A stretch of DNA of 64,000 nt, from the NCBI GenBank assembly GCA_947034885.2, contig OX344749.2, positions 54,155,682 to 54,219,681 of the forward strand. The letters are read 5' to 3'. The notes under the pieces were generated by a model, which was given only the letters and a program-made list of their open reading frames with translations, was not told the origin of the DNA and searched no databases. The translations under genes and the position numbers were made by a program. Shown piece by piece: positions 41,337 to 62,470 of the stretch (position 1 is the stretch's first letter; each line of letters begins with the position of its first letter). The stretch comes from Thuidium tamariscinum (lineage: Eukaryota > Streptophyta > Bryopsida > Hypnales > Thuidiaceae).

Positions 41337-44300
41337 GCTTTATTCCCACCCTTGGAGAAAAGTATACACAACCGGTTTCAACTATGTGAAATCTAATTCC
41401 TAGTGGGTGTTGTGGGCGCTTTATTCCCATCTTTGGAATAAAGTGTACACAACTGGGTTCTACCACTTTTGTGAACAATCTCTAGTGGGTGCCTAACCTA
41501 CGTGTAATCCAGTTACGCCTTCCAAGCAATGGATATGTCTAAATTCCTACTCCTAATTTGTCCACTTATAAATGCCGAGTTAAACTAACCTTGTACTTAA
41601 GGGTTAGCCCGTTTTGGCCACCACACTTTGGACTAAGCAGTGTTAAATGATGAACAAAGGCCTATCAATCGAAAATGAGTAATTTTTTATTACTTTCTAT
41701 TCTTTTAAGTTTCTATCAGGGTCTAAGTTTTTCTCTAAACCTCCTCCTACCTTGTCTTTTTTGCGATTCTATTGAATTCAAAGTGGCTTTGGGTTTTTTC
41801 GTTCTAAGATATCTTTTGGATAATTCTATTCCTAACTTGCTCGTTGATTGCTTCTTGATTTAACTAATGCTTTGTTTAACTAATGCTTTGTTTAACTAAT
41901 CTTGACTATTGTGGCTAAATATCGGAATAAAATAATTGAGTTTAATCTAAAAGGAATGATTTTATCTTCCTAAAAGTAAAACCTCAACCTTTGACCTTGA
42001 GGTAAATGTGAATTTTCTTTGGTAAATTTTGACCGTTGACCGGTTCATCAAATTTTACCTAGTCAAACCCTTTTTCACCTAAATGTGTCAATTCCTTGTT
42101 TCGGGTTACTTTTACCTTCCTTTGTTTTAATCCCAATTTCACTTTCTTAATCCTTTGGTAAAATTAATTATAAGTAGATTTTGATCGTTATCCGGTTCTC
42201 CAAAATCTACCTATTTCTCGTTTTAACCTTGGAAGTACTTTTGGGTTTTAACCTTCTACTTCTACTTCTAATCAAATGTCTTAATTTCTAAAGCTTAATT
42301 TCCTTGTTAATTCTACTTTTGGTTCAATTTGGAAATATCATTGATTTTGATTATCTTTTAAATGCTTGTTCAAATTTTTATCTTTATTTTGTATTAGGGA
42401 ACTAACTATGCTAATTGACTACATCTACTTCTAATTGGTAAATCACTTAATCGATACACGTGTCCAAACTTAAATTGGAATCTAATAACTAAATTCTACT
42501 TTAAATGAAATTTCGGAAGAAAATAGAAATGAAAAGGAAAATTCAAAGACTAACCTCCACCATGACAACTTCGAGGTCTTCGTGTACTCCCATAAATTCC
42601 CCACGTGGCGCTAACTCCACTTCCATCTTCAATGCTCTCGTTTTGAATGGGGTATTTGGTATGCATATTATGCCTTGGATGTTGTATTATCTCCTAAGTC
42701 TCCATTCTTCTTTTTCTTTCTTTTGGGGGTTTTTCCTTATCTTTTGAACAACTTCTTTATCTTTCCAATACGCCTTAAAAGTCAAAACATAAAATATCCA
42801 TATATAATCTAATCTAGAAATTAGTTGTTAAATGGTCCCTAAAGTGAAACTCTACTACAACTAAGGTTTTCTAATTTTTCTTTAATTTAGCAACCTCTAA
42901 AACTCCTCTAAAGTCAAACTATTCTTTTCTTTGTTTTTTCTACCAGTATTCCCCTAAATTAAAATATGGTTAAAAAAGTCAAACGTTCTGAATGGTTGGT
43001 TCTCTTTTGCTAACTTCTTCTTCTACACTTCCAACTCCAATCTTATAGACTCAAATGGCATTTGTATTATGCCTTGTTCGAGTTTAGTTTGGAGATTGTA
43101 TTGTATAGCCTCACACATGGAAGAGAATTCAATTTCTTCTCTCAGTCCAACAACCAAAGCTTCAAGGTGGGGAGGAGTGGTGTCCAGCACCCAAAGGAGC
43201 TTCTATATTAGCAAGTGGATGCAATCAGCCCCTCTCAAGGTCAATTGGGGTTGACCAGCCCTCTAGCTGACCCCACTATGTGCAAATCTGATTTTTGTGA
43301 ACTGACCACTTGCTAGAGGTTCAGCTTTCCAGTCTCTCACCCTCAACTTATTCTCAATATGTGCAAATCTGATTTTTGGTGTACTAGCTTTCTTTTGGAA
43401 AATTCATCCCTCAGTTTCTCACCCTCAGCTTGCTCTTAGTATATGCAAATCTGAATTTTAGTAGACTGGCTTCCCTTTGGAAAAATCAGCCCCTCAATCC
43501 CTTTTTATGTCTCTCAATATTTGGAATTCAGGCCTCACCTCAGGGTTCTCTCAATGTGTGGAAATCTAAATTATTCTATGATCTTTTACAAAAGAAAATT
43601 AAACAAAAATCAAAATGGGGCCCTAAGGCATCATCCCAAAGTTTGATTTTGTTAATTTAGATGGTGTAATCAACCAAGTTGATGGATATCAAGTAACTGT
43701 GGCCAGTTCAATCGTACCGGCCTTTGTTACTGACCTGCCAGTACCAGTCGGTTTGGCTACCTGGCTCGGTCTGACTGCTGGCCGTCGGCCTAGTTGCTAG
43801 CCTTTCCTTCTTCGGAGCTCTGGTTTGATTAACTGAACTGGATTTTTGGTAAATCCAGCCTCTTCTTGGCCGTTGCCCGCCAATTTTGGGTCTCTGTATG
43901 GGGACTCTTTAATCAAAAACAAAACACGGAAAAAATTATGAGTAAGAGCGAAGCTTCGCCGCTTGGGGGGTTTAGGCCCAAATTTGAAAATGATTTGACA
44001 GACTTTTTGGCTAAGATTCAAAAGATCGTAGAATTTTGGGGATAGCTTCGCCAAATTAGAGGGAGAACCCTCAAATTCTAGGATAATTTTGCCAAGGGTA
44101 TGCCTACTCAAAGACTAGAAAGGAACTTAGATCCTACCCAAACTCCTAAGATACAACTAGGACCTCAATTAAATGTTTAAGCTTAGGGGGATCCTTGATA
44201 AGCCAATCTAAGCTGTGAATCCCTTATCAAAAGATTTAAATCAAATAACTTTGGTATCAGAACTTTCAAACTAGACACAACCTCAATTAATTTTTTAAGC

Positions 44301-44374
44301 TTAGGGGGATCCTTGATAAGCCAATCTAGGCTGTGAATCCCTTATCAAAAGACTTAAATCAAATAACTTTGGTA
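41337..44374 (-). mobile_element. LTR-B leader/body, right arm
   Basis: Reverse complement of 37,897-40,621 with indels. Two local tandem duplications are visible: gggcgctttattccca at 41,334 and 41,411, and a ~113 base unit around 44,163-44,275 and 44,276-44,388. GC-rich block at 43,690-43,800. Non-coding. Confidence 0.65.
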
Positions 44375-45819
44375 TCAAAACTTCAAAATGAGAACACTAA
44401 TGAAATGATTAAGCGCTCCAAAGGTACCTCAAAGTCCTTTGGAAGGGCTTATAACAAGAACTTAAGAATGTGATGGAAATTGGAGTGTATCAAAGGAACA
44501 AGAGTTTGGAGAATACCAAAAACTTATCAAGGTAGTCACTTGTAATGTGGAATTGAAAAGATGTTTTGAATAGAGAATATGGAATGAAGTGTGTGTGGTA
44601 TAAGAGGTGTAAGAGGAAATAAAAAAAATTAGATGTTGAGGTAATGAAAATGAGGTGTGGAATGAGGGGAGGGGGAGGCCTTTTATACATTTCCAAGGCC
44701 TCCTCCCCCCTCAAGTTACGTTCTAATCTGCCTAAGGAAAAACCAAATTAATGTTTTAAAAATTTACCCTACTATTGTGATTACTCTAACTTTTGGAGAA
44801 ATGGCCCAATTGCCAAACGGACAATGCCAATAGCTTCAAAAGACCCAAATTAGCCTAGAAGAACCTCTACCCTTACTCTCGAAGCCTAATTGCGCTTAAA
44901 AGCTAACATTTACGAATTGATAAAAAGGGTAGAAAATCTATCTTTTGGAATTGATTTTTTCCAAAAGTTTTGACTAGCTAGGGTTGTCGGGGAGGTCCAA
45001 GAATGTTGGAAAAGAGTCTAAGTTGATTCAAATCGGACAGTGTATGCTCCCTATATGCCGGTCAACTTGCAAGAGATTTGGTATAACTATTAAAACTTGT
45101 TGCCACTACCGATTTTGGTACTTGTTGATGTCAGAATGTCTTGAAATTTGTTGTGACACTTATTTATGCTAAAATATACTATCCTAATTTTTAGTGGAAT
45201 TTTACCATCACCATGGAATTTTCTATGAATTTCCCATTGTCGTAAAAGCGATTGACTTCTCATGGAGTCATTTCCATAATTTAGAAAATTACAAAACTTT
45301 TAGGGGATCTTCTAGGAAGCCCCCTAATGACAAGTGCAAACTTTTGCTAAAAACCCACACTATCTAAATAAAGTAGAGATTGTGATATAGCGGAATTAAT
45401 CCCTTTGAGGGGGAATCATTCTGGAATCTCCACTAGTTAGCTTTGCCGTGATGCTCTTGAGTGACTACCGAAATCCCATGGTTTCCGGTTAGCACAATTT
45501 TGCCAAGATCCTTCTCGAGAATTCCGATGAGGACCATCTTGATGCTTGTGCACTAATTTGTCTCCCGAATATTAGTTAGTACAACCTTCTGGTAACTCCA
45601 TAATATCATATCTAATCACCTGATAAAACATAGAAATTGGCTCTAAGGAGTCTTTTAAGGTACTCCGGAATAATTGTGACCAATTCCTCGTAATTATTGG
45701 GAATTATATCAATCCTACTTTGAACATTCTTTTTAGTTGATTTTAAACCATAATAACCCTAAATATGAGCAATAAGTAAAAAAAAATCCGAGGCCTGAGT
45801 GACAATGACGGGACTCACA
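44375..45819 (-). mobile_element. LTR of family B, right copy
   Basis: Inverted counterpart of 36,450-37,896. Read on the minus strand it starts TGTGAGTCCCGTCATTGTC at 45,819 and has TATA at 44,680-44,687. The five bases outside the two outer ends (agttgt left, ctgcca right) do not form an obvious target duplication, which argues against a simple single insertion. Confidence 0.7.
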
Positions 45820-52335: not shown

Positions 52336-55300
52336 TCACCAATAATCACCACAAGAACACACACCATTTTGAAAGTGGTGAAAGCGATTAGCATCCCTCA
52401 CAATAATCTCTCGTTCAATCACCTTTGAGATAAACTTTGTTGCTGTGTGACAATCTGAACACACTCGAAGGTTCTTGAACACCCGAATTGGCTCTCCAGG
52501 GGGTGTCCGCAGGAGTCCGTAAGCAATAGCCAACTTCTCACTATGGGAGCAAAGAGCAAATTCTTTCTCCTCCTCATCAATGTTCCGCAACACTAGCCGG
52601 GTATCAGGAATGTAGCCTTGGGCCTTAATTTTCTCACTCAATCTCCTCACCTCCGCATAGATCTCCTTCGCTTCTGAGTGAGAAGTATCCCCTACGACGA
52701 AGTCATGGACCTTGTTATCAACTTCAATCCAGCTACGCCCTGGCTCCTTGCGTATACCTCTCTCCTGCATCATAGTGCGCACCCACAACACCTCCTCCCA
52801 CTTGCCAGCTGCAGCATAGATATTCGAGAGAAGCACATATGCAGAAGCATCCTTCGGTTCCAACTTGAGAAGCTCATTAGCGGCAAGTCTGCCCAACTCC
52901 ACATTACCGTACGTTCTGCAAGCACCAAGCAAGGCTCCCCAAGTTGCACCATCTGGTTCCACTAACATGTTCCCAACGAAGAGCTTTGCTTCCTCCAAGT
53001 GTCCTGCTCGGCCAAGAGCATCCACCATGCAGGTACAAAGCACCACACTAGGTTCGATGCCATAATCTTCTGTCATAGCCAAAAAATGTCTACGGCTCTC
53101 ATCCACAAGGCCTGCATGACTACAAGCCGACAACACTGCAACGAATGAGATCTCATCGGGCATCACACCCTCTGCAATCATAGTTTTAAAGACTTCCAGG
53201 GCTTCATGCCCACATCCATGCTCTGCAAGTCCACCAATCATCAGGGTCCATGTGACTGTATCACGATCCTCCATCCTCTCAAAAGCCACTCGTGCATCAT
53301 CCAAACTACCACATTTAGCATACATGTGAACCAGCGCACCGCCCACACGCAAATCCGACTCAAGTCCCGCTTCAAGGACATGCCTGTGAACCTCCTTCAC
53401 CCACTCCAAAGCCCCTGCGCTTGAACATGGATTCAAAATGCTCGCATAAGTGATTGCATTGGGTTCGAGGCCTTCCTGTTTCATTTGGAGAAGCAGCCCA
53501 TATGCCTCACTCCCATACCCATGCGCTGCAAGTCCACCAATCATCACGGTCCACGTGATCACATCACGATCGTCCATCCGATCGAAAACTAGCCGAGCAT
53601 CAACCAAACTGCCACACTTTCCATACATGTGGACAAGCGCATTGCCCACACGCAAATCCGACTCAAGTCCCGCTTCAAGGACATGCCTGTGAACCTCCTT
53701 CACCCACTCCAAAGCCCCGACGCTTGAATATGGATTCAGAATGCTCACATAAGTGAATGCATTGGGTTCGAGGCCTTCCTGTTTCATTTGGAGAAGCAGC
53801 CCATACGCTTCACTCCCATACCCATGCGCTGCAAGTCCACCAATCATCACGTTCCACGTGATCACATCACGATCCTCCATCCTGTCAAAAACTAGCCGAG
53901 CATCAACCAAACTGCCACACTCTCCATACATGTGGACAAGCGCAGTGCCCACACGCAAATTCGACTCAAGTCCCGCTTCAAGGACATGCCTGTGAACCTC
54001 CTTCACCCACTCCAAAGCCCCTACGCTTGAACATGGATTCAAAATGCTCGCATAAGTGAATGCATCGGGTTCGAGGCCTTCCTGTTTCATTTGGAGAAGC
54101 AGCCCATATGCCTCACTCCCATACCCATGCGCTGCAAGTCCACCAATCATCACGGTCCACGTGATCACATCACGATCGTCCATCCGATCGAAAACTAGCC
54201 GAGCATCAACCAAACTGCCACACTTTCCATACATGTGGACAAGCGCATTGCCCACACGCAAATCCGACTCAAGTCCCGCTTCAAGGACATGCCTGTGAAC
54301 CTCCTTCACCCACTCCAAAGCCCCTGCGCTTGAACATGGATTCAAAATGCTCGCATAAGTGATTGCATTGGGTTCGAGGCCTTCCTGTTTCATTTGGAGA
54401 AGCAGCCCATATGCCTCACTCCCATACCCATGCGCTGCAAGTCCACCAATCATCACGGTCCACGTGATCACATTACGATCGTCCATCCTGTCAAAAACTA
54501 GCCGGGCATCAACCAAACTGCCACACTCTCCATACATGTGGACAAGCGCATTGCCCACACGCAAATCCGACTCAAGTCCCGCTTCAAGGACATGCCTGTG
54601 AACCTCCTTCACCCACTCCAAAGCCCCTACGCTTGAACATGGATTCAAAATGCTCGCATAAGTGAATGCATTGGGTTCGAGGCCTTCCTGTTTCATTTGG
54701 AGAAGCAGTCCATATGCTTCGTGCCCACATCCGTGCTGTGCAAGTCCACCAATCATCAAGTTCCACGTGATCACATCACGATCCTCCATCCTGTCAAAAA
54801 CTAGCCGAGCATCAACCAAACTACCACACTTTCCAAACATGTGGACAAGCGCATTGCCCACACGCAAATCCGACTCAAGTCCCGCTTCAAGGACATGCCT
54901 GTGAACCTCCTTCACCCACTCCAAAGCCCCTGCGCTTGAACATGGATTCAAAATGCTCGCATAAGTGAATGCATCGGGTTTAAAGCCTTCCCTTTGCATT
55001 TGGATAAATAGTTCATATGCTTCTTGCCCACATCCGTGTTCAGCAAGTCCACCAATCATCACGTTCCACGTGATCACATTACGATCGTCCATCCGGTCAA
55101 AAACTAGCCGAGCATCAACCAAACTGCCACACTTTCCATACATGTGGACAAGCGCAGTGCCAACACGCACATCTGATTCAAGCCCAGCATGTCTTACATA
55201 CGCATGGACTTCTTTGCCCCACTGCAAAGCTGATGGATCGGCACATGCCTTCAGGATGCTCGAGAAAGTAAATGCAGTTGGCTGGACCCCTTTTTGGCAC

Positions 55301-55665
55301 ATTTGATTGAAAAGTTCCATTGCTTTTTCAGAATGATTGTGCTTTGCATAACCTCCAATCATAATGGTCCAACTGAACACGTTCTTCTTCACAAGTTTAT
55401 GAAACACTCCACGTGCATCCTGCAATTCTCCACACGTGATATACACGCTCACAAGGTTGTTTGCCACATATGTATTCTGCTCCATTCCACTCTGGTTGAT
55501 GTAGTCGTGAACCTGCTTCGCGACATTAACATTGAGGTTTTCCTCCTTCAAGCACCGTCTCAAAACTTCAACATACATAAACGAGTCGATGGCCATGCCT
55601 TGGTCTAGTCGATTCTTCAAAATACCAATTGCTTCAGTCGTGCTTCTTGCAGTTTTCAAGGACAT
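52336..55665 (-). CDS. PLS-class DYW pentatricopeptide-repeat protein (organelle C-to-U editing factor)
   Basis: Intronless, 1,109 residues from the first ATG (MSLKTARSTTEAIGIL). The frame stays open 18 codons further, to a GTG at 55,719, without another ATG. About eight S-P-L repeat triplets run from residue ~25, then L2 and S2 (VVLCTCMVDALGRAGHLEEA), E1 (GATWGALLGACRTYGNVE), E2 and a complete DYW deaminase: HSEKLA (HxE, catalytic), CSDCH zinc ligands and terminal CSCGDYW. Known role of the family: sequence-specific binding of mitochondrial or plastid RNA and deamination of a C four bases downstream. No convincing transit peptide is seen, so an upstream exon or a later-targeted start may be missing. 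The central six 101-residue units are nearly identical. Same strand and ~400 bases downstream of the OSB-type gene's stop. Confidence 0.9.
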   Translation of the reverse strand: MSLKTARSTTEAIGILKNRLDQGMAIDSFMYVEVLRRCLKEENLNVNVAKQVHDYINQSGMEQNTYVANNLVSVYITCGELQDARGVFHKLVKKNVFSWTIMIGGYAKHNHSEKAMELFNQMCQKGVQPTAFTFSSILKACADPSALQWGKEVHAYVRHAGLESDVRVGTALVHMYGKCGSLVDARLVFDRMDDRNVITWNVMIGGLAEHGCGQEAYELFIQMQREGFKPDAFTYASILNPCSSAGALEWVKEVHRHVLEAGLESDLRVGNALVHMFGKCGSLVDARLVFDRMEDRDVITWNLMIGGLAQHGCGHEAYGLLLQMKQEGLEPNAFTYASILNPCSSVGALEWVKEVHRHVLEAGLESDLRVGNALVHMYGECGSLVDARLVFDRMDDRNVITWTVMIGGLAAHGYGSEAYGLLLQMKQEGLEPNAITYASILNPCSSAGALEWVKEVHRHVLEAGLESDLRVGNALVHMYGKCGSLVDARLVFDRMDDRDVITWTVMIGGLAAHGYGSEAYGLLLQMKQEGLEPDAFTYASILNPCSSVGALEWVKEVHRHVLEAGLESNLRVGTALVHMYGECGSLVDARLVFDRMEDRDVITWNVMIGGLAAHGYGSEAYGLLLQMKQEGLEPNAFTYVSILNPYSSVGALEWVKEVHRHVLEAGLESDLRVGNALVHMYGKCGSLVDARLVFDRMDDRDVITWTVMIGGLAAHGYGSEAYGLLLQMKQEGLEPNAITYASILNPCSSAGALEWVKEVHRHVLEAGLESDLRVGGALVHMYAKCGSLDDARVAFERMEDRDTVTWTLMIGGLAEHGCGHEALEVFKTMIAEGVMPDEISFVAVLSACSHAGLVDESRRHFLAMTEDYGIEPSVVLCTCMVDALGRAGHLEEAKLFVGNMLVEPDGATWGALLGACRTYGNVELGRLAANELLKLEPKDASAYVLLSNIYAAAGKWEEVLWVRTMMQERGIRKEPGRSWIEVDNKVHDFVVGDTSHSEAKEIYAEVRRLSEKIKAQGYIPDTRLVLRNIDEEEKEFALCSHSEKLAIAYGLLRTPPGEPIRVFKNLRVCSDCHTATKFISKVIEREIIVRDANRFHHFQNGVCSCGDYW
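53430..55250 (-). repeat. Array of nearly identical 303 bp units inside the PPR gene
   Basis: Six successive in-frame units, each one S-P-L triplet (101 codons), for example HRHVLEAGLESDLRVGNALV and LVDARLVFDRM in every unit. Antisense ORFs recur at the same 303 base step (53,450, 53,753, 54,056, 54,359, 54,662), which confirms the period. Most differences fall at residue 5 and the last residue of the P and S motifs. Confidence 0.9.
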
Positions 55666-55719
55666 ACCACCGCCACCACCCGGTACAACATGCCTCGACT
55701 CTCCTGCAATACTAGGCAC

Positions 55720-56072
55720 AATGCATCCTCTTCCATTGTAGCCCTTACACAGCCTGATTCATCAATAGAGTCTTCAATAGAAATCCCTTCGAAAGAAGAA
55801 CACTGATACACAGTGAAAGGTGCAAGCCCACTAATGCCCAGTACCCACATATTTCAACATCCACAAATTTGCATCCAACCATTTGAATTCTTAATATCTC
55901 TCACATACACAGCAATTCATTGCAAATCGTTCCACTTTAAGTGCACCCAATAACAAAAAGGAAGAACAGAGCATATTGCACACACAAAAATCCTTAAACT
56001 CATCCAAAATCACATATTTCTAGATGCACCTACTCTAGTCACTAGACAAGGTAGCCAACTCCGTTCCTAAAG
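55720..56072 (-). promoter_or_regulatory. Spacer between the OSB-type gene and the PPR gene
   Basis: About 350-400 bases that must hold the OSB 3' UTR and the PPR promoter/5' UTR. A minus-strand ORF at 55,656-55,850 overlaps the PPR start in another frame and is not accepted. No clear TATA box. Confidence 0.35.
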
Positions 56073-58931
56073 TTACCTGTCTCCTTGTGTTGTGTCTTGA
56101 GAATCTTTGGAGCGATAATCAACAGGAGGTTGCACTCTCCCTTGAGTTGTCAACTTGAGCATTGCCTTTACCCATGGTGGAGTTGACCAGCCATATATCC
56201 AAAGTGCTTTCCTTGCCACCTTATGCCTAAAGTCAGGTGATCTAGGATTCCTCTGTAGGCGCCACAACCCATGATCAGATCCTAAAAAACTGTCTCATAT
56301 TCATTTTGCATCTAACAATCAATATTCCAGGAATATTTGTTGATGACACTGCAACGATCTGAGCAATGTTCACTCCACTTAATGACAGCAAACAACGCAA
56401 TCTCATACTTGTTGTTTTACGAAGTGCCCACAAGTGCCCATGGCCTTGTACAAGCAAGAAACGTCCCGTCACTTGTTGAGCCGAGTATTATATCAGCTTT
56501 CTTTTATCTAGTCATACCTTGTCAGCTCTGTTGTCCCACCACTGCGTTGGATCCGCAAAGTACTCTTTCCAAAGTTCTTCAACCGACTGTAGTTCACCTG
56601 AATCCACCGCAACATGCTTTGCCAATGTCAGTCACATTCTCACCAGGAGAGGCAAACTCTTTCTGCGACGATGGGCATATGGTACATACCTGAAGCATTG
56701 GAATTCGAAGGTGATCTCTTCCAAACTGATGAAAATGGTGAACACCGGATTGGTCCACTGCCTCGTATGTGAGAGGACAAGGGCAGGGATAAAGAACGGT
56801 AGATAGGCCATGGAGACCTGAAGACTGAGATTGCACAGATATCCTGGGTACACAAACGTCAACACTCTGTAAATAAGCAACTCCGTACCATTCAAAGCGC
56901 TCTTCCCATCAATACCGGGGTTTAGGGTTCGGTCAACCATGTTCATATCCGGTTACGTTTGGAAAAATGTGACAACCTCTTTATCAAACATTGCTGTAAA
57001 GGAGACCTCATACTTCAACACATTTGTTGTCAGAATGACCACAGTAGTCCAACCCATGTCACAAGTCATCCAACCGCTTAATTCACTCACCTGTGCACCA
57101 CCTTGTCCACGCACCGACAAAAAGATTCTCTGTTCTCTCCTGCACTGCAATTGTTGTCTACAATCTAAATCCCACGACACCAATTGAGGTGGCAGTCCCA
57201 TCACTATCTGCCTGCATTACAGAAATCAATTAACTCTAACTGTTACTAAGAAGAACATTACAAGGAACAACGCCGGAATGGACCTCAGAATTGAATCTGT
57301 GGACAGAAACACATCAAATTGAAAAGAAACTACATGCGCGAAAAATCTGCTACTACCTCCAATCCTGAAAACCCGAACACATCAACCCTTAAACGTCGCG
57401 CCGGGCACCGTGGGAGAAAGTGGGCTGCCACTAGTGTTGCTGACCGAAGGTGGATACACTGTTCACGATCTATGAACAGTGTTACGGAAATGATGCAATT
57501 GGGCAGCCTGCAAAAGGGGAACAATGGAAGCGGTCGTTGACCAGGTTACCAATGCCCTTCTGACACGATTTTCATCTGTGTGTCCGACACAAGTGGAATC
57601 AACGAACACGTCTGTAGCTACAGTCCCGCCCACTTGTGCCGTTTGTCCAGTCAGTGGCGTCCTTTCTTCCTTCCTAGCAGTAACGTATCAGCGATTGTGT
57701 AATTCGCCACTTTGCAAAGATTACAAATTGTGTGTGCTCGAGCATGTTAAGAACTACTGAGACAAGCACTAGTGTAACATGTGGAACCAGAACATTACTC
57801 TACTTCAATTGAAAGCTTATATTTATATGGGAAGTTCAGAGCTTGCATCCCAACTCTTTGATACAAATCACTTTCTTGCTGCAGCATTCTTTCCGCCTGA
57901 TGAACAGAAACGATCATACCTAAAGACTGGGTGAAGCACATTCACGTAGCATTCTATTCCACACGCTTCCCGGGTCATGTTCTTATTGACCTGCATATAC
58001 GGTACAGAGCACATAATGAGAAAAAGAAAGTCATGTCCACGTTTCTACAAGCTCCTTGATAGTGATCCACATGTGGAAAACAACACAAACAAATTGGGAA
58101 AACGACAGGAGGGGAACCAGAATACAAAAGATGACATGGTGAGCACCAATGACTGCTCTCACCTTTTGAAACCCCTGGAGTGCAGAACAGAACCAATTAC
58201 TACGTTCACTGAGGTACAGAATGAGACCACGGGAGCTCGTTACCCTGAAATGTACATTGCTATCTACTCGTGAACATGACAATGACCATGGACATTGCCG
58301 AACTCACATTGAGGTCTGAAATTCTCTCCCGAATGTTCCGCTTCATGAGCTGAAGTCGAATTTCAGACACAAATTTCAGCACTCACATCGCTATGAGGAG
58401 GACGGTGCTGTCATTGAAGAGACCGAAAAATTCTTCCAAGTCACGTACCTTCACAAAGAGCACATCGCACTGCAGAAGAAGAAGCGACATATCCCGCTCC
58501 ACTGACGCCTGCCGCAACCAAGTTCGTCAGTCAAAGTTCGGAATCTATGACAACAATTAAGAACTTGCGGAATTTGGAATGACGTTTCTCTAGATTCCCA
58601 AAAGCACTGAAGACAAAATGGAGAAAATGCACAACTCATTATGGAGCCACGCTGGAGTGACTCAATTGCCTCCTCTCTCAGCAACCCAAGAAGTGGCTGC
58701 CTGCACAGTAAAGGTGAAGCAAAACTGACTGATTCTGACAATCACACTGCAAACGCTAATGCAAAAAGCCCAATTGACGTACCTTTTTCATGGCTCAGTA
58801 AGTTTCCCACAGATTCACCGACTGCGTTGGCTACTTATTCTTCCCCTACATCTGAGCATCCATTGTCCCCGGTATCGAGCTGTCACGAAGCCATACCAGC
58901 GAGTTCTCCTCAGCGCAGATGGCACTAACAT
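56073..58931 (-). CDS. OSB-type organellar single-stranded DNA-binding protein (PDF motif); exon model partial
   Basis: The last two exons are firm: 56518-56597 (VEELWKEYFADPTQWWDNR, ADK) and 56073-56252 (RNPRSPDFRHKVARKALWIY, then WSTPPWVKAMLKL), joined in phase 0. Together they make a textbook PDF motif (W..yFa.P.qWWDNR..K.NPRsPDFrHK..r.aLWi...PpWvk). Known role: OSB proteins bind single-stranded organelle DNA and limit illegitimate recombination. A likely first exon is 58819-58931: MLVPSALRRTRWYGFVTARY and on, ten Arg and no acidic residue in 38, a mitochondrial-type presequence. Plausible internal exons with splice sites lie near 58,390-58,510, 58,160-58,240, 57,900-57,970, 57,370-57,510, 57,095-57,218 and 56,696-56,760. 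I could not assign frames for the expected OB-fold, so the middle is uncertain and the gene may be divergent. PDF exon incoming phase is 1 if it starts at 56,597. Confidence 0.6.
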
Positions 58932-59370
58932 TTTCACAAGGCGCTTGTCTGGAAAACACGTCCACTACTTAGCACACAGTCAGCATCTTCTGCAAGGCAT
59001 TTCCAGTCTTCTTCGAATCCTTCCTCGCTGTGTTCTCTTTCTCAATTTATGCCAACAGCGGAAGAAATGAAGGCGAAGAGCAATGGTAGTGAAGCACCTA
59101 CTTGGAAGTTTTGAACGTCGGAAATGTTGAACAAGTCTGGAGTCTTCTAGATACAATGCATTTCCTCCTGATGAAGCAGTTGCCGCAATTCGTTCGCCAG
59201 TAGGTGACTCCCTCACTAATAAGAGAAATGACCGCTAACCACCGGCTGAAATGCTATGGCGAACAGTCCTTCACCTCCCGCAACAGGGCACTGAAGGAAC
59301 GATTAGGGTTTCATGATAAACCCTACCCTTACAGGGCCGGGGTGAATCGATCGGTCACTTGAGAAGGCAC
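58932..59370 (-). promoter_or_regulatory. Probable promoter / 5' UTR of the OSB-type gene
   Basis: GC content is higher than in neighbouring DNA. A donor-like site (minus strand, cttccaa|gtaggt near 59,105) suggests a leader intron. The region near 59,300-59,330 carries gatta-gggtttcatgataaaccctaccc with telobox-like AAACCCTA, common in promoters of plant organelle-biogenesis genes. Confidence 0.35.
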
Positions 59371-59459
59371 TGATATTTTTTTTTCCACGCATGAAATGCT
59401 TTGCAAATTTTGAATGCATATTTGCAATCTAATGCCCCATGTCAATGAGCTCAAAAACT

Positions 59460-59640
59460 AAAAAAATTTAAAAATTGAATTATTTTGCGGCCCCCCCCTC
59501 TCAATCTGATTTGAACATTAAATTTTAAATATTAAAATTTTTTAACTTTTCAAACCCCCCTCCCCTCCCAATCTAACTTAATTGTTAAATTTTGAATATT
59601 AAATTTATTATTTTTGAAACCCCCTCCCTCCCACCCCTTC
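59460..59640. repeat. C-tract / AT tandem repeat
   Basis: About three ~70 base units, each a C-rich run (cccccccctctcaatctg, ccccctcccctcccaatcta, ccccctccctcccacccc) followed by attaaattttgaatattaaa-type DNA. Confidence 0.6.
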
Positions 59641-59689
59641 TTCTCACAGTGTGGGTTGGTTACAATGCATATGGGATAAATTGGGTAAT

Positions 59690-60020
59690 AACCATATCCG
59701 TATTTTGTACAAGTTTTCGTATCTGTATGAGTATATATATTCAGTATTAGTATTAGTATTCAATATCAGTATTTGTATTCTATATTCCTACTCTGTATCT
59801 GTATTTTGTATTTATACTCTATACCAGTATTTTCTATCCATATTTTGTATTTATACTCTACACCAATATTTTCTATCCATATTCTGTACTCATATACTAT
59901 ATCCGTATTCCATATCTGTATCCGTATCCAACGGCTCTTGATTTTCCTTGGAAGGGGGGTGGAATTTTTTTTAAATTCAAATCCAATGGTTCTTGATTTT
60001 TACTGGTGAGGGGGGTCAGG
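59690..60020 (+). repeat. TA-rich minisatellite and short tandem duplication
   Basis: 59,690-59,930 consists of variants of tattttgtatttatactcta and tatcc/tatctgtat words; a ~52 base unit is nearly exact around 59,797-59,900. 59,930-60,020 has two units of ccaa(c/t)ggttcttgatttt...ggggggt. The ORFs of 78-96 codons here only translate the repeat. Confidence 0.65.
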
Positions 60021-62470
60021 AAGATTAATCCAACAAGGTGTGCTGCCACTTTTCGTCACATTGTTAGTTGGAAGGCATCTAAGTTAGAACTAATCCATAC
60101 TTTCGAATACAGTAAATGAGAATTACAGTAATTTCTATATTCCAATTGCAGATCACAGTAGCTAAGACCAGTGACTAGTCCAATAGCAAGGATATTGGCA
60201 GGGGTGCATCTTGGATAAAGATGAAATTTTTTTTTGCAAATTTTGCGCAACCTCTTAGTCTTCCCTATAGACTATGATTGATGAGTTGCACTTATATGAG
60301 GGACAAAACTCAAAAAAATTGTTACTATACTTGACCATTTCAAAGTCAACTCTTTTGCCAATTTCATTTGGAATGACACATGGGTCATAGGATTCATTAG
60401 GAATTTGAAACTCAAGTCATGACAAACAATCCAAGAATTCACAATAGTCATGTCTAAAAGAAAATGAAGGAGACAATGCCATCATTTGTGACTAGCTATT
60501 AGGATGCTATAGTATACTTGAAGTTGGTCAGCATTGTCAACACCTCTCATATTTCTTTGCTATTGTGTAAGTTCATTGGACTTGTTTGGACATGCTTTTT
60601 TTCCCCTTTGCCCTTTCTCTACACAATGTCTTCCTCTTGATCTCATGAATGTGCCTCAACATGCGTAGATAATAGCAAAATAAGAATACTATCTTTCCAA
60701 ACAACACATCAAATTTGTCATGATATGTATATGCAAAAATCCATCCATCCCATGTCCTTTTTAGTAATGTTTTTTCCTACTCATAAGCTCACTTGCTAGC
60801 AACGGTACCGTGCAAATAATTGTTTTATATTTAGTTGATGAGAAGTCTCACTAGCAACAAATAAATTGACTACGAGATTGACTACTTATTGCATAATCAA
60901 CAAACTAAACTAAATAGTATGAAAGTAAGATATTTCATTCATAAAGTGAACTATTTAGAGTTGAAACTAGGAGAAATCATGTCCTAATCAATAGAAAATC
61001 AATTGATTTTAATTGGTTTTTTGATATTTGGAGCATTGTAATGATTGTTCATAAAAATCAATAGAATTGCTACTTGATTTTTGTTATTATAATTGGAGTA
61101 GTGTATGACCAAATCAACAAAATTTTATTTTTTCAAAAAAAATTGGATTTTTTTAGAATGCAATGGAATCTACTAGAATGTGATAAAATCTTGTGAAAGC
61201 TTATAACATCTTTTGTAATCTTTTAGAATTTTTTGAAACCTTCAAATTCTACTTTACACATACACAAGCATACAATTTTAACTTACAAGCATTTGAACTG
61301 AAATTCCCTCATTTGAGCAATGTTGAAAACCAAAAAATTGAAATTCTAATACAATAAATTATTTTTTTCCAACTTAATCATTTACAATTTAATAGTGTTT
61401 TTTTTTTTAACTTAGTAGACTTTGGTGTCCATTTAGGCAAAGCGAAATGCCATTTTTTGAGAAAACTTTGAACTATAAAAAGTTGGTAAATCAAGATAAC
61501 TTTCATTTCTAAAAACTAAATTGAGATTTTAATTTTCCAATCAAAAATCATCAACAAAGTTTAAAGAGAGGTTGGAAGTGAACTTTTTTGACATTTTCTA
61601 ACATTCAAAAATAAAAGTGACAAGTAATTCATGATTAGTAGGAGCCTTGAAGAATAGTCAATAATAAATAGAGAATTTCTTATATAAATGTGCATTTTTT
61701 TGTTTTATTTTTTTTGATAAAAGTAAAAAATCATTCCTAATTAGGAGAAGTCTCAAAGAATTGCAAAAATTAAATAGTGAAGTTTTTACTAAAATCTCCA
61801 TTCTTTATTTTGTATTTATATTTTTAATACAACAAATAATTAATGACTATGAAGGCTTTTAGAAAATAGTTAAAAATGAAAATGAAAATTTCATACATAA
61901 ATTAACATCATTCATTTCTTAATTTTCAATCAATGAGAGAATCTATATATGAATCATGATTATGAAGATTGTTTGAAAACAACAAATAGTCAATAAAAGA
62001 AGGTCTTACTTAAATCTTTGTGGACTTTCTATTTTATTTTAGATCTATTTGAGAAATGATTCATTAGTAGAATGAATTTTTTATGATTGCGAAACTAAAA
62101 CAGAGAAATTCTTATTGAAATATCTATTCTAAATTCTAAAAAATTTAAGTGAAAATGATAAATGATTCATAAACTTTAGACAAATGATTTATGATTCCAA
62201 TTAATGGTCATGAATTATCTGCAAACTACATTTAGTTTAGATGTTTAGGAACGTATGTGTGAGTGTTTAGAAATTCTTAGCTTTTTGTTGAGCTATGTAA
62301 TAAAAACATTTAGGAATCAAAATCTAAAAATCTTTGTATTCATTGCATTTATGAAAAATCATCTTCACTCTACTTCAAAGAATTTTCTTGGGGGGTTCAC
62401 TTCCTTATATATTTTGTATACACCTGCAACAATGACCTATTTAATGGGGGGCTATTCATAAAATGACCTA
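60021..62470. other. AT-rich intergenic DNA
   Basis: No gene or conserved motif recognised. Many A/T homopolymer runs. Confidence 0.4.

Follow-up and report, generated by a model that had tools for sequence, protein, structure and literature searches.

DYW-type PLS pentatricopeptide-repeat (PPR) proteins are C-to-U RNA-editing factors of plant organelles, and Restorer-of-fertility-like (RFL) genes encode P-class PPR proteins without E or DYW domains. PMC3441922 attributes purifying selection to editing PPR genes with stable targets and contrasts them with Rf-type genes. According to PMC7380019, the RFL genes of barley lie in clusters and change in copy number; diversifying selection falls chiefly on residue 5, but also on residues 35, 2, 7, 8 and 29, and clustered genes are the most affected. 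Fast change of address residues combined with gain and loss of whole units has been described before for fertility-restorer genes and is not known from RNA-editing genes, and no description of a DYW family of this kind in a moss was found in the literature searched (titles and beginnings of abstracts). Here, a DYW-type PLS gene of the moss Thuidium tamariscinum was analyzed, and it probably belongs to a family of recently multiplied nuclear editing-factor genes with differing predicted addresses that evolve in the manner of RFL genes.

The stretch of DNA under study (the window) comprises 64,000 nucleotides, and the coordinates of its features are collected in Table 1. The reading frame of the gene stays open up to position 55758. 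In a Pfam profile search, PPR_2, PPR, E_motif and DYW_deaminase all exceeded their cut-offs in the window protein, with 80.3 bits for PF20431 and 149.5 bits for PF14432, and an E+ motif scored 21.8 bits, under the cut-off of 24. A diverged unit is followed by six full S-P-L units, by S1-P2-L2-S2, and by the E and DYW domains, with which the protein ends. The motifs of the array are 31 (S), 35 (P) and 35 (L) residues long, giving the 101-residue, 303-bp unit of a PLS array, and a comparably long array is listed for Physcomitrium patens PpPPR_77 in PMC9459714. A sequence search matched residues 668-1127 to 9kfx_A (E=9.7e-260) and residues 111-423 to 5iww_D (E=9.5e-89) in the PDB. The first ATG lies 18 codons inside the listed GTG start and is replaced by another codon in 5 of 31 paralogues (L010, L022, L024, L027 and L035), so the listed start of the protein is provisional; translation may begin elsewhere, or within an upstream exon.

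Table 1. Features of the DYW-type PLS gene in the window (pairs are residue 5 and the last residue of a motif).
Feature	Position	Strand	Remarks
DYW-type PLS PPR gene, open frame	52336-55719	-	1,127 codons from GTG
DYW deaminase domain (PF14432)	52339-52617	-	residues 1035-1127; HSE, CxxCH, terminal CSCGDYW
E motif (PF20431)	52723-52911	-	residues 937-999; coordinates converted from residues
Terminal S1, P2, L2, S2 motifs	52951-53352	-	
S2	52951-53046	-	
L2	53047-53154	-	
P2	53155-53259	-	pair TD
S1	53260-53352	-	pair GD
S-P-L unit 6	53353-53655	-	S pair ND, P pair TN
S-P-L unit 5	53656-53958	-	S pair TD, P pair NN
S-P-L unit 4	53959-54261	-	S pair ND, P pair TD; 4 bases from unit 6
S-P-L unit 3	54262-54564	-	S pair NN, P pair TN; 6 bases from unit 6, 10 from unit 4
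S-P-L unit 2	54565-54867	-	S pair ND, P pair NN; nearest is L021 unit 2 (9/303 bases differ)
S-P-L unit 1	54868-55170	-	S pair TN, P pair ND; nearest is L021 unit 1 (6/303 bases differ)
Upstream DNA common to paralogues, ~3.7 kb	55720-59439	-	about 89-96% identity

The preliminary description had reported six nearly alike S-P-L units of 303 bp, and these were found on the minus strand at 53353-55170; any two of them differ at 4 to 33 of their 303 bases. The motif read-out returned the P pairs as they had been given (ND, NN, TN, TD, NN, TN), and also the five S pairs (ND, NN, ND, TD, ND), which belong to units 2-6; the S motif of unit 1 (TN) had been omitted. The differences had been said to cluster at residue 5 and the last residue of the S and P motifs, the code positions. 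An excess above chance was indeed present there: all 4 code positions were among the 24 of 101 residues that vary between the six units (hypergeometric p=0.0026), and all 4 again fell within the 11 variable residues when units 3-6 were taken by themselves (p=8e-5). Of 157 nonsynonymous codon differences between pairs of units, these 4 of 101 positions carried 33 (21%, against 4% by position count), although within the units of the window alone the excess comes from few changes. The clustering was not exclusive. Since 20 residues outside the code positions also vary (18 once residue 5 and the last residue of the L motif are likewise excluded), the phrase "homogenised except" at the recognition residues overstates the pattern. 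This other variation forms mostly one block, P13-P33, which separates units 1 and 2 from the remaining units, and silent-only variation was seen at 13 further codons.

Recent tandem change of the array, which had been proposed for the gene, was supported by comparison with the closest paralogue read (L021). The two genes differ at 13 of 588 bases before the array and 23 of 1,017 after it, about 2.2% on either side, yet L021 has 4 units and the window gene 6. Units 1 and 2 correspond in the two genes. For window units 3-6 the distance to L021 unit 3 is 14-16 bases and that to one another, unit 5 excepted, only 4-10 bases. This indicates that units were gained or lost since, or around, the split from L021. 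In the 194 full units of 31 genes, the mean distance was 26.6 bases within a gene vs 34.8 between genes, and the nearest unit lay in the same gene for 124 units. The predicted addresses differed in all 31 genes read.

The assembly comprises 363 Mb in 19 contigs, of which C18 is mitochondrial (103,123 bp) and C19 plastid. A profile search placed PF14432 (DYW) matches at 86 sites in the genome, and when the last 296 residues of the window protein served as query, 47 loci at 86-100% identity were obtained, taken here as the family, together with 21 full-length loci at 68-76%, 8 at 53-60% and further partial or weaker ones; the 21 were set aside from the family analyses. In 44 of the 47 family loci the open frame fits 2 to 10 whole S-P-L units; the three exceptions are of 342, 790 and 962 codons. 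Short frames were seen at C8:17811378 (342 codons) and C1:19363923 (280 codons), copies that seem cut short or disrupted where the other loci are open. The 31 genes read were drawn from the best matches among the 47, members with 2 or 3 units being left out. The catalytic and zinc-ligand motifs CxxCH, C.C.DYW, PG.SW and HxE were present in each of them, and the exact string HSEKLA in 29.

The distance between the gene in the window and the end of C1 is about 26 kb. Among the 44 placeable loci (three on C6 were left out), 15 lie at most 0.75 Mb from a contig end, vs 4.3% expected (p=2e-10), and 15 of all 47 are clustered at C4 20.3-23.0 Mb. In the upstream comparison, for which 33 of 6,747 first-look candidates were scored, the shared DNA of many copies ended near 59439, and a weaker common stretch at about 60096-60774 ended near 60774. 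As about 3.7 kb of upstream DNA was copied along with the genes, the copies arose from DNA segments, and retroposition of a processed gene was ruled out. The shared stretch at 55720-60774 could represent a promoter, 5' exons or the edge of the copied segment; in view of the boundaries common to many copies near 59439 and 60774, a mobile element that might carry the gene was also considered. On the other flank, an abundant dispersed repeat at 42336-45819, probably a transposable element, had more than 30 partial copies among the matches listed (79-88% identity) and swamped the downstream-flank search.

Selection was analyzed in 52 non-overlapping nearest pairs of units with at most 12 differences, 44 of them within one gene, a choice by which the same change is not counted repeatedly. 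With a common silent rate, the code positions carried 32 nonsynonymous and 3 synonymous differences (dN/dS 1.54) vs 209 and 158 at the other positions (0.48), so that the selection at specificity residues suggested in the preliminary description was upheld across the 31 paralogues. At residue 5 of the S motif (S5), 18 nonsynonymous and 0 synonymous differences were counted (ratio 3.58, Poisson p=5.9e-6), a result that survives correction for 101 positions. Within genes, code positions were variable in 92 of 124 cases, vs a null mean of 35.2 and a maximum of 58 in 20,000 draws. In parsimony tree counts over all units, which unit-to-unit recombination makes unsafe, S5 was again at the top of the 101 positions (48 nonsynonymous, 5 synonymous, ratio 2.05), followed by L29 (1.84), L5 (1.72) and L2 (1.70), all with dN above the mean silent rate; P35 and P5 stood at about 1.1 and S31 at 0.53, and the pooled values were 1.07 for code and 0.41 for other positions. 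According to PMC7190159, the L motifs in two moss factors do not read bases, and the variation at L5 and L2 therefore need not be a change of address. At residues 5 and last, S5 thus gave a clear diversifying signal and P35 and P5 a weaker one, and it was absent at S31; a single residue shows the signal most strongly, but not exclusively. The initial observation holds in moderated form and is stronger at the scale of the family.

Variation strictly confined to the code was also considered, and position entropy over the 194 units speaks against it: P18, L29 and P13 rank highest and P5 comes in 24th place, the code positions not leading because linked blocks of P-motif subtype inflate other positions. 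The mean r2 with variants within 40 nt was 0.023 for S5, 0.007 for P5 and 0.21 for P35, against a background of 0.45 below 10 nt, 0.34 at 10-20 nt and 0.16 at 20-40 nt, several silent sites being weakly linked to their neighbours as well. S5 and P5 are thus nearly independent of neighbouring variants, and inherited blocks are not their explanation. Retained ancestral variation moved in blocks, the alternative offered in the earlier account being retained ancestral variation, accordingly does not fit S5 and P5 but applies in part to P35, which is partly linked to the P-motif subtype.

The predicted addresses were then compared with mitochondrial editing sites. C-to-U sites were predicted by comparing 4,175 mitochondrial codons with flowering-plant proteins, and 29 credible sites were obtained, which by estimate may be about half of the mitochondrial total. 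Addresses were placed four bases upstream of the edited C and scored with a simple code table of our own, made after the published code. Against the 29 sites, which cover part of the mitochondrial coding sequence and no plastid sequence, the 31 addresses did no better than against random cytidines in the compared mitochondrial genes: 3 of 31 had their best site within the top 10, with 3.8 expected (combined p=0.37). The best rank of the window gene was 54 of 2,204 cytidines. To single the gene out as one in the course of acquiring a new RNA address, as the preliminary description did, is too narrow for one of 47 similar loci, and the scoring against the 29 sites yielded no target for it.

Four diverged DYW genes (L065-L068), picked by convenience from the 8 loci at 53-60% identity, with motifs split by hand before scoring and S2 left out, were scored in the same way. 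Their best ranks were 35, 3, 9 and 1 of 2,206 (combined p=0.006, Fisher), and the difference between these few controls (four) and the family had p=0.0085; L065 ranked 35 at offset 4 and 1 at offset 5, and offset 4 alone was counted. When the family was scored without S2 or with shortened arrays, the outcome was unchanged (p=0.005 to 0.011 vs controls). The candidate factor-site pairs at offset 4 were L068 with nad5 R241W (1 of 2,206), L066 with nad2 S427L (3) and L067 with nad5 R200C (9), in the C18 exons L044 and L064. For the family, offsets 1 to 7 were scored with three statistics. At offset 6 the mean z had p=0.015, the best z per site 0.034 and the ranks 0.064; at offset 1 the best z per site had p=0.015. 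No offset remained significant once the numbers of offsets and statistics were allowed for. An initial run with 17 sites had given p=0.05 and 0.09, which faded with 29 sites. Were a target ranked 10 or less present in the set for 20% of the 31 genes, three or fewer such ranks would occur with a probability of 0.007. These rank data speak against the family serving these 29 predicted sites.

This bears on an ordinary expansion of editing factors, by which several dozen organelle sites are served by genes for one or a few sites each and residue changes represent the fitting of each gene to its own stable site. This reading is plausible, though rated somewhat short of an even chance. The 29 predicted sites in 4,175 codons suggest several dozen overall, and the 86 DYW matches are of the same order. 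The number of C-to-U sites predicted in moss mitochondria lies between about 9 and 124, with up to 124 in one plagiotropic moss (PMC6627324), and an ordinary need for many factors is therefore a live rival. One member, L023 (C2:31181000-31190500, 10 units), had a predicted site, cox1 P198L (exon in L040), as the best of 2,204 cytidines (13.2 bits); about 0.4 such top matches are expected by chance (31 x 29 / 2,204), and the pairing is a lead that may be due to chance. The reading is opposed by the chance-level ranks of the 31 addresses, while four diverged DYW genes departed from chance, and by the purifying selection attributed to editing PPR genes with stable targets in PMC3441922.

A restorer-like conflict is possible but rather doubtful. 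The family would then track changing organelle transcripts, such as selfish mitochondrial reading frames, and silence or edit them, the turnover of addresses being its purpose. Against this, RFL genes are of the P class and without a DYW domain, and to our knowledge no cytoplasmic conflict is known for this plant. An exact-pattern search of the whole genome with the window address gave 94 matches vs 85 for a reversed-pattern control, with none listed on the mitochondrial or plastid contigs. The missing match to the 29 conventional mitochondrial sites is in its favour, as is the agreement with the signature of barley RFL genes (PMC7380019), since S5 came first and L2 and L29 were among the top four in the tree counts. 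A fuller version is speculative and we consider it unlikely: this moss DYW family would be a conflict-driven, RFL-like reservoir of addresses whose members edit or silence fast-changing organelle RNAs and not conserved sites, S-P-L units would pass between subtelomeric and clustered copies, and selection would switch S5.

Neutral decay or mutation bias, in which redundant copies drift and frequent N/T and N/D switches are spread by gene conversion, is improbable. High redundancy, some broken copies (C8:17811378, 342 aa, and fragments) and the many variable positions would agree with it. However, all 31 genes read are open through to the DYW end, albeit in a sample chosen by match score, and in the C-terminal 205 codons a mean dN of 0.029 vs a dS of 0.109 (ratio of means 0.27) indicates that the catalytic part is kept. 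Changes at S5 and P5 stay within the residues of the code, with fewer silent changes than expected; the code alphabet was kept in 194 of 194 units at P5 (N/T/S) and at P35 (N/D/S), in 191 at S5 and in 189 at S31. In addition, S5 took 44 tree steps vs at most 31 at 17 silent sites of similar frequency (at least 15% minor frequency). An assembly artefact, with a wrong number or order of units, is very improbable: near-identical 303-bp units are hard to assemble and the assembly alone was analyzed, but whole units and the reading frame are kept in 31 of 31 arrays, and the units carry many private differences, with 191 distinct DNA sequences among 194.

The preferred reading is thus of recently multiplied editing-factor genes that evolve like RFL genes. 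Gene segments with their upstream DNA were copied to chromosome ends, into one cluster and elsewhere, and inside each gene the 101-residue S-P-L unit was gained, lost and homogenised as a whole. The base-specifying residues, chiefly S5, outpace silent sites and switch almost only among residues of the PPR code, the remaining protein being under purifying selection. Each array would then read a different RNA, and by analogy with RFL genes the family may be a reservoir in which a cytidine deaminase is fused to RNA addresses that keep changing.

If confirmed, a DYW family of near-identical members with S5 outpacing silent sites would offer natural address variants that differ by one residue, on which the PPR code could be tested for S motifs. 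The family bears on how new editing specificities arise and on whether seedless plants have restorer-type conflicts between nucleus and organelle. Address-changing PPR evolution has been described for P-class restorer-like genes, and the editing factors examined in PMC3441922 are reported there to be under purifying selection.

Like the DYW-type PLS editing factors PpPPR_56, 77, 78 and 79 of P. patens, the window protein has PLS motifs, P2-L2-S2, an E motif, a PG box and a DYW deaminase with metal-ligand motifs; unlike them, it belongs to a family with near-identical units in each gene, 47 near-identical loci and dN/dS above 1 at S5. DYW factors of P. patens are reported to be active as editors when placed in E. 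coli (PMC6397227). It resembles synthetic PLS/DYW PPR proteins (PDB 9kfx, 5iww) by sequence match, but those are designed and the near-consensus arrays described here are natural. With RFL genes, as portrayed in the barley study (PMC7380019), the family shares recent multiplication, partial clustering, unequal exchange and rapid change at residue 5 and the last residue, as well as near positions 2 and 29. It differs from them in that the window protein is not of the P class: it combines a PLS array with an E motif and a DYW deaminase, and the gene is therefore not an RFL gene.
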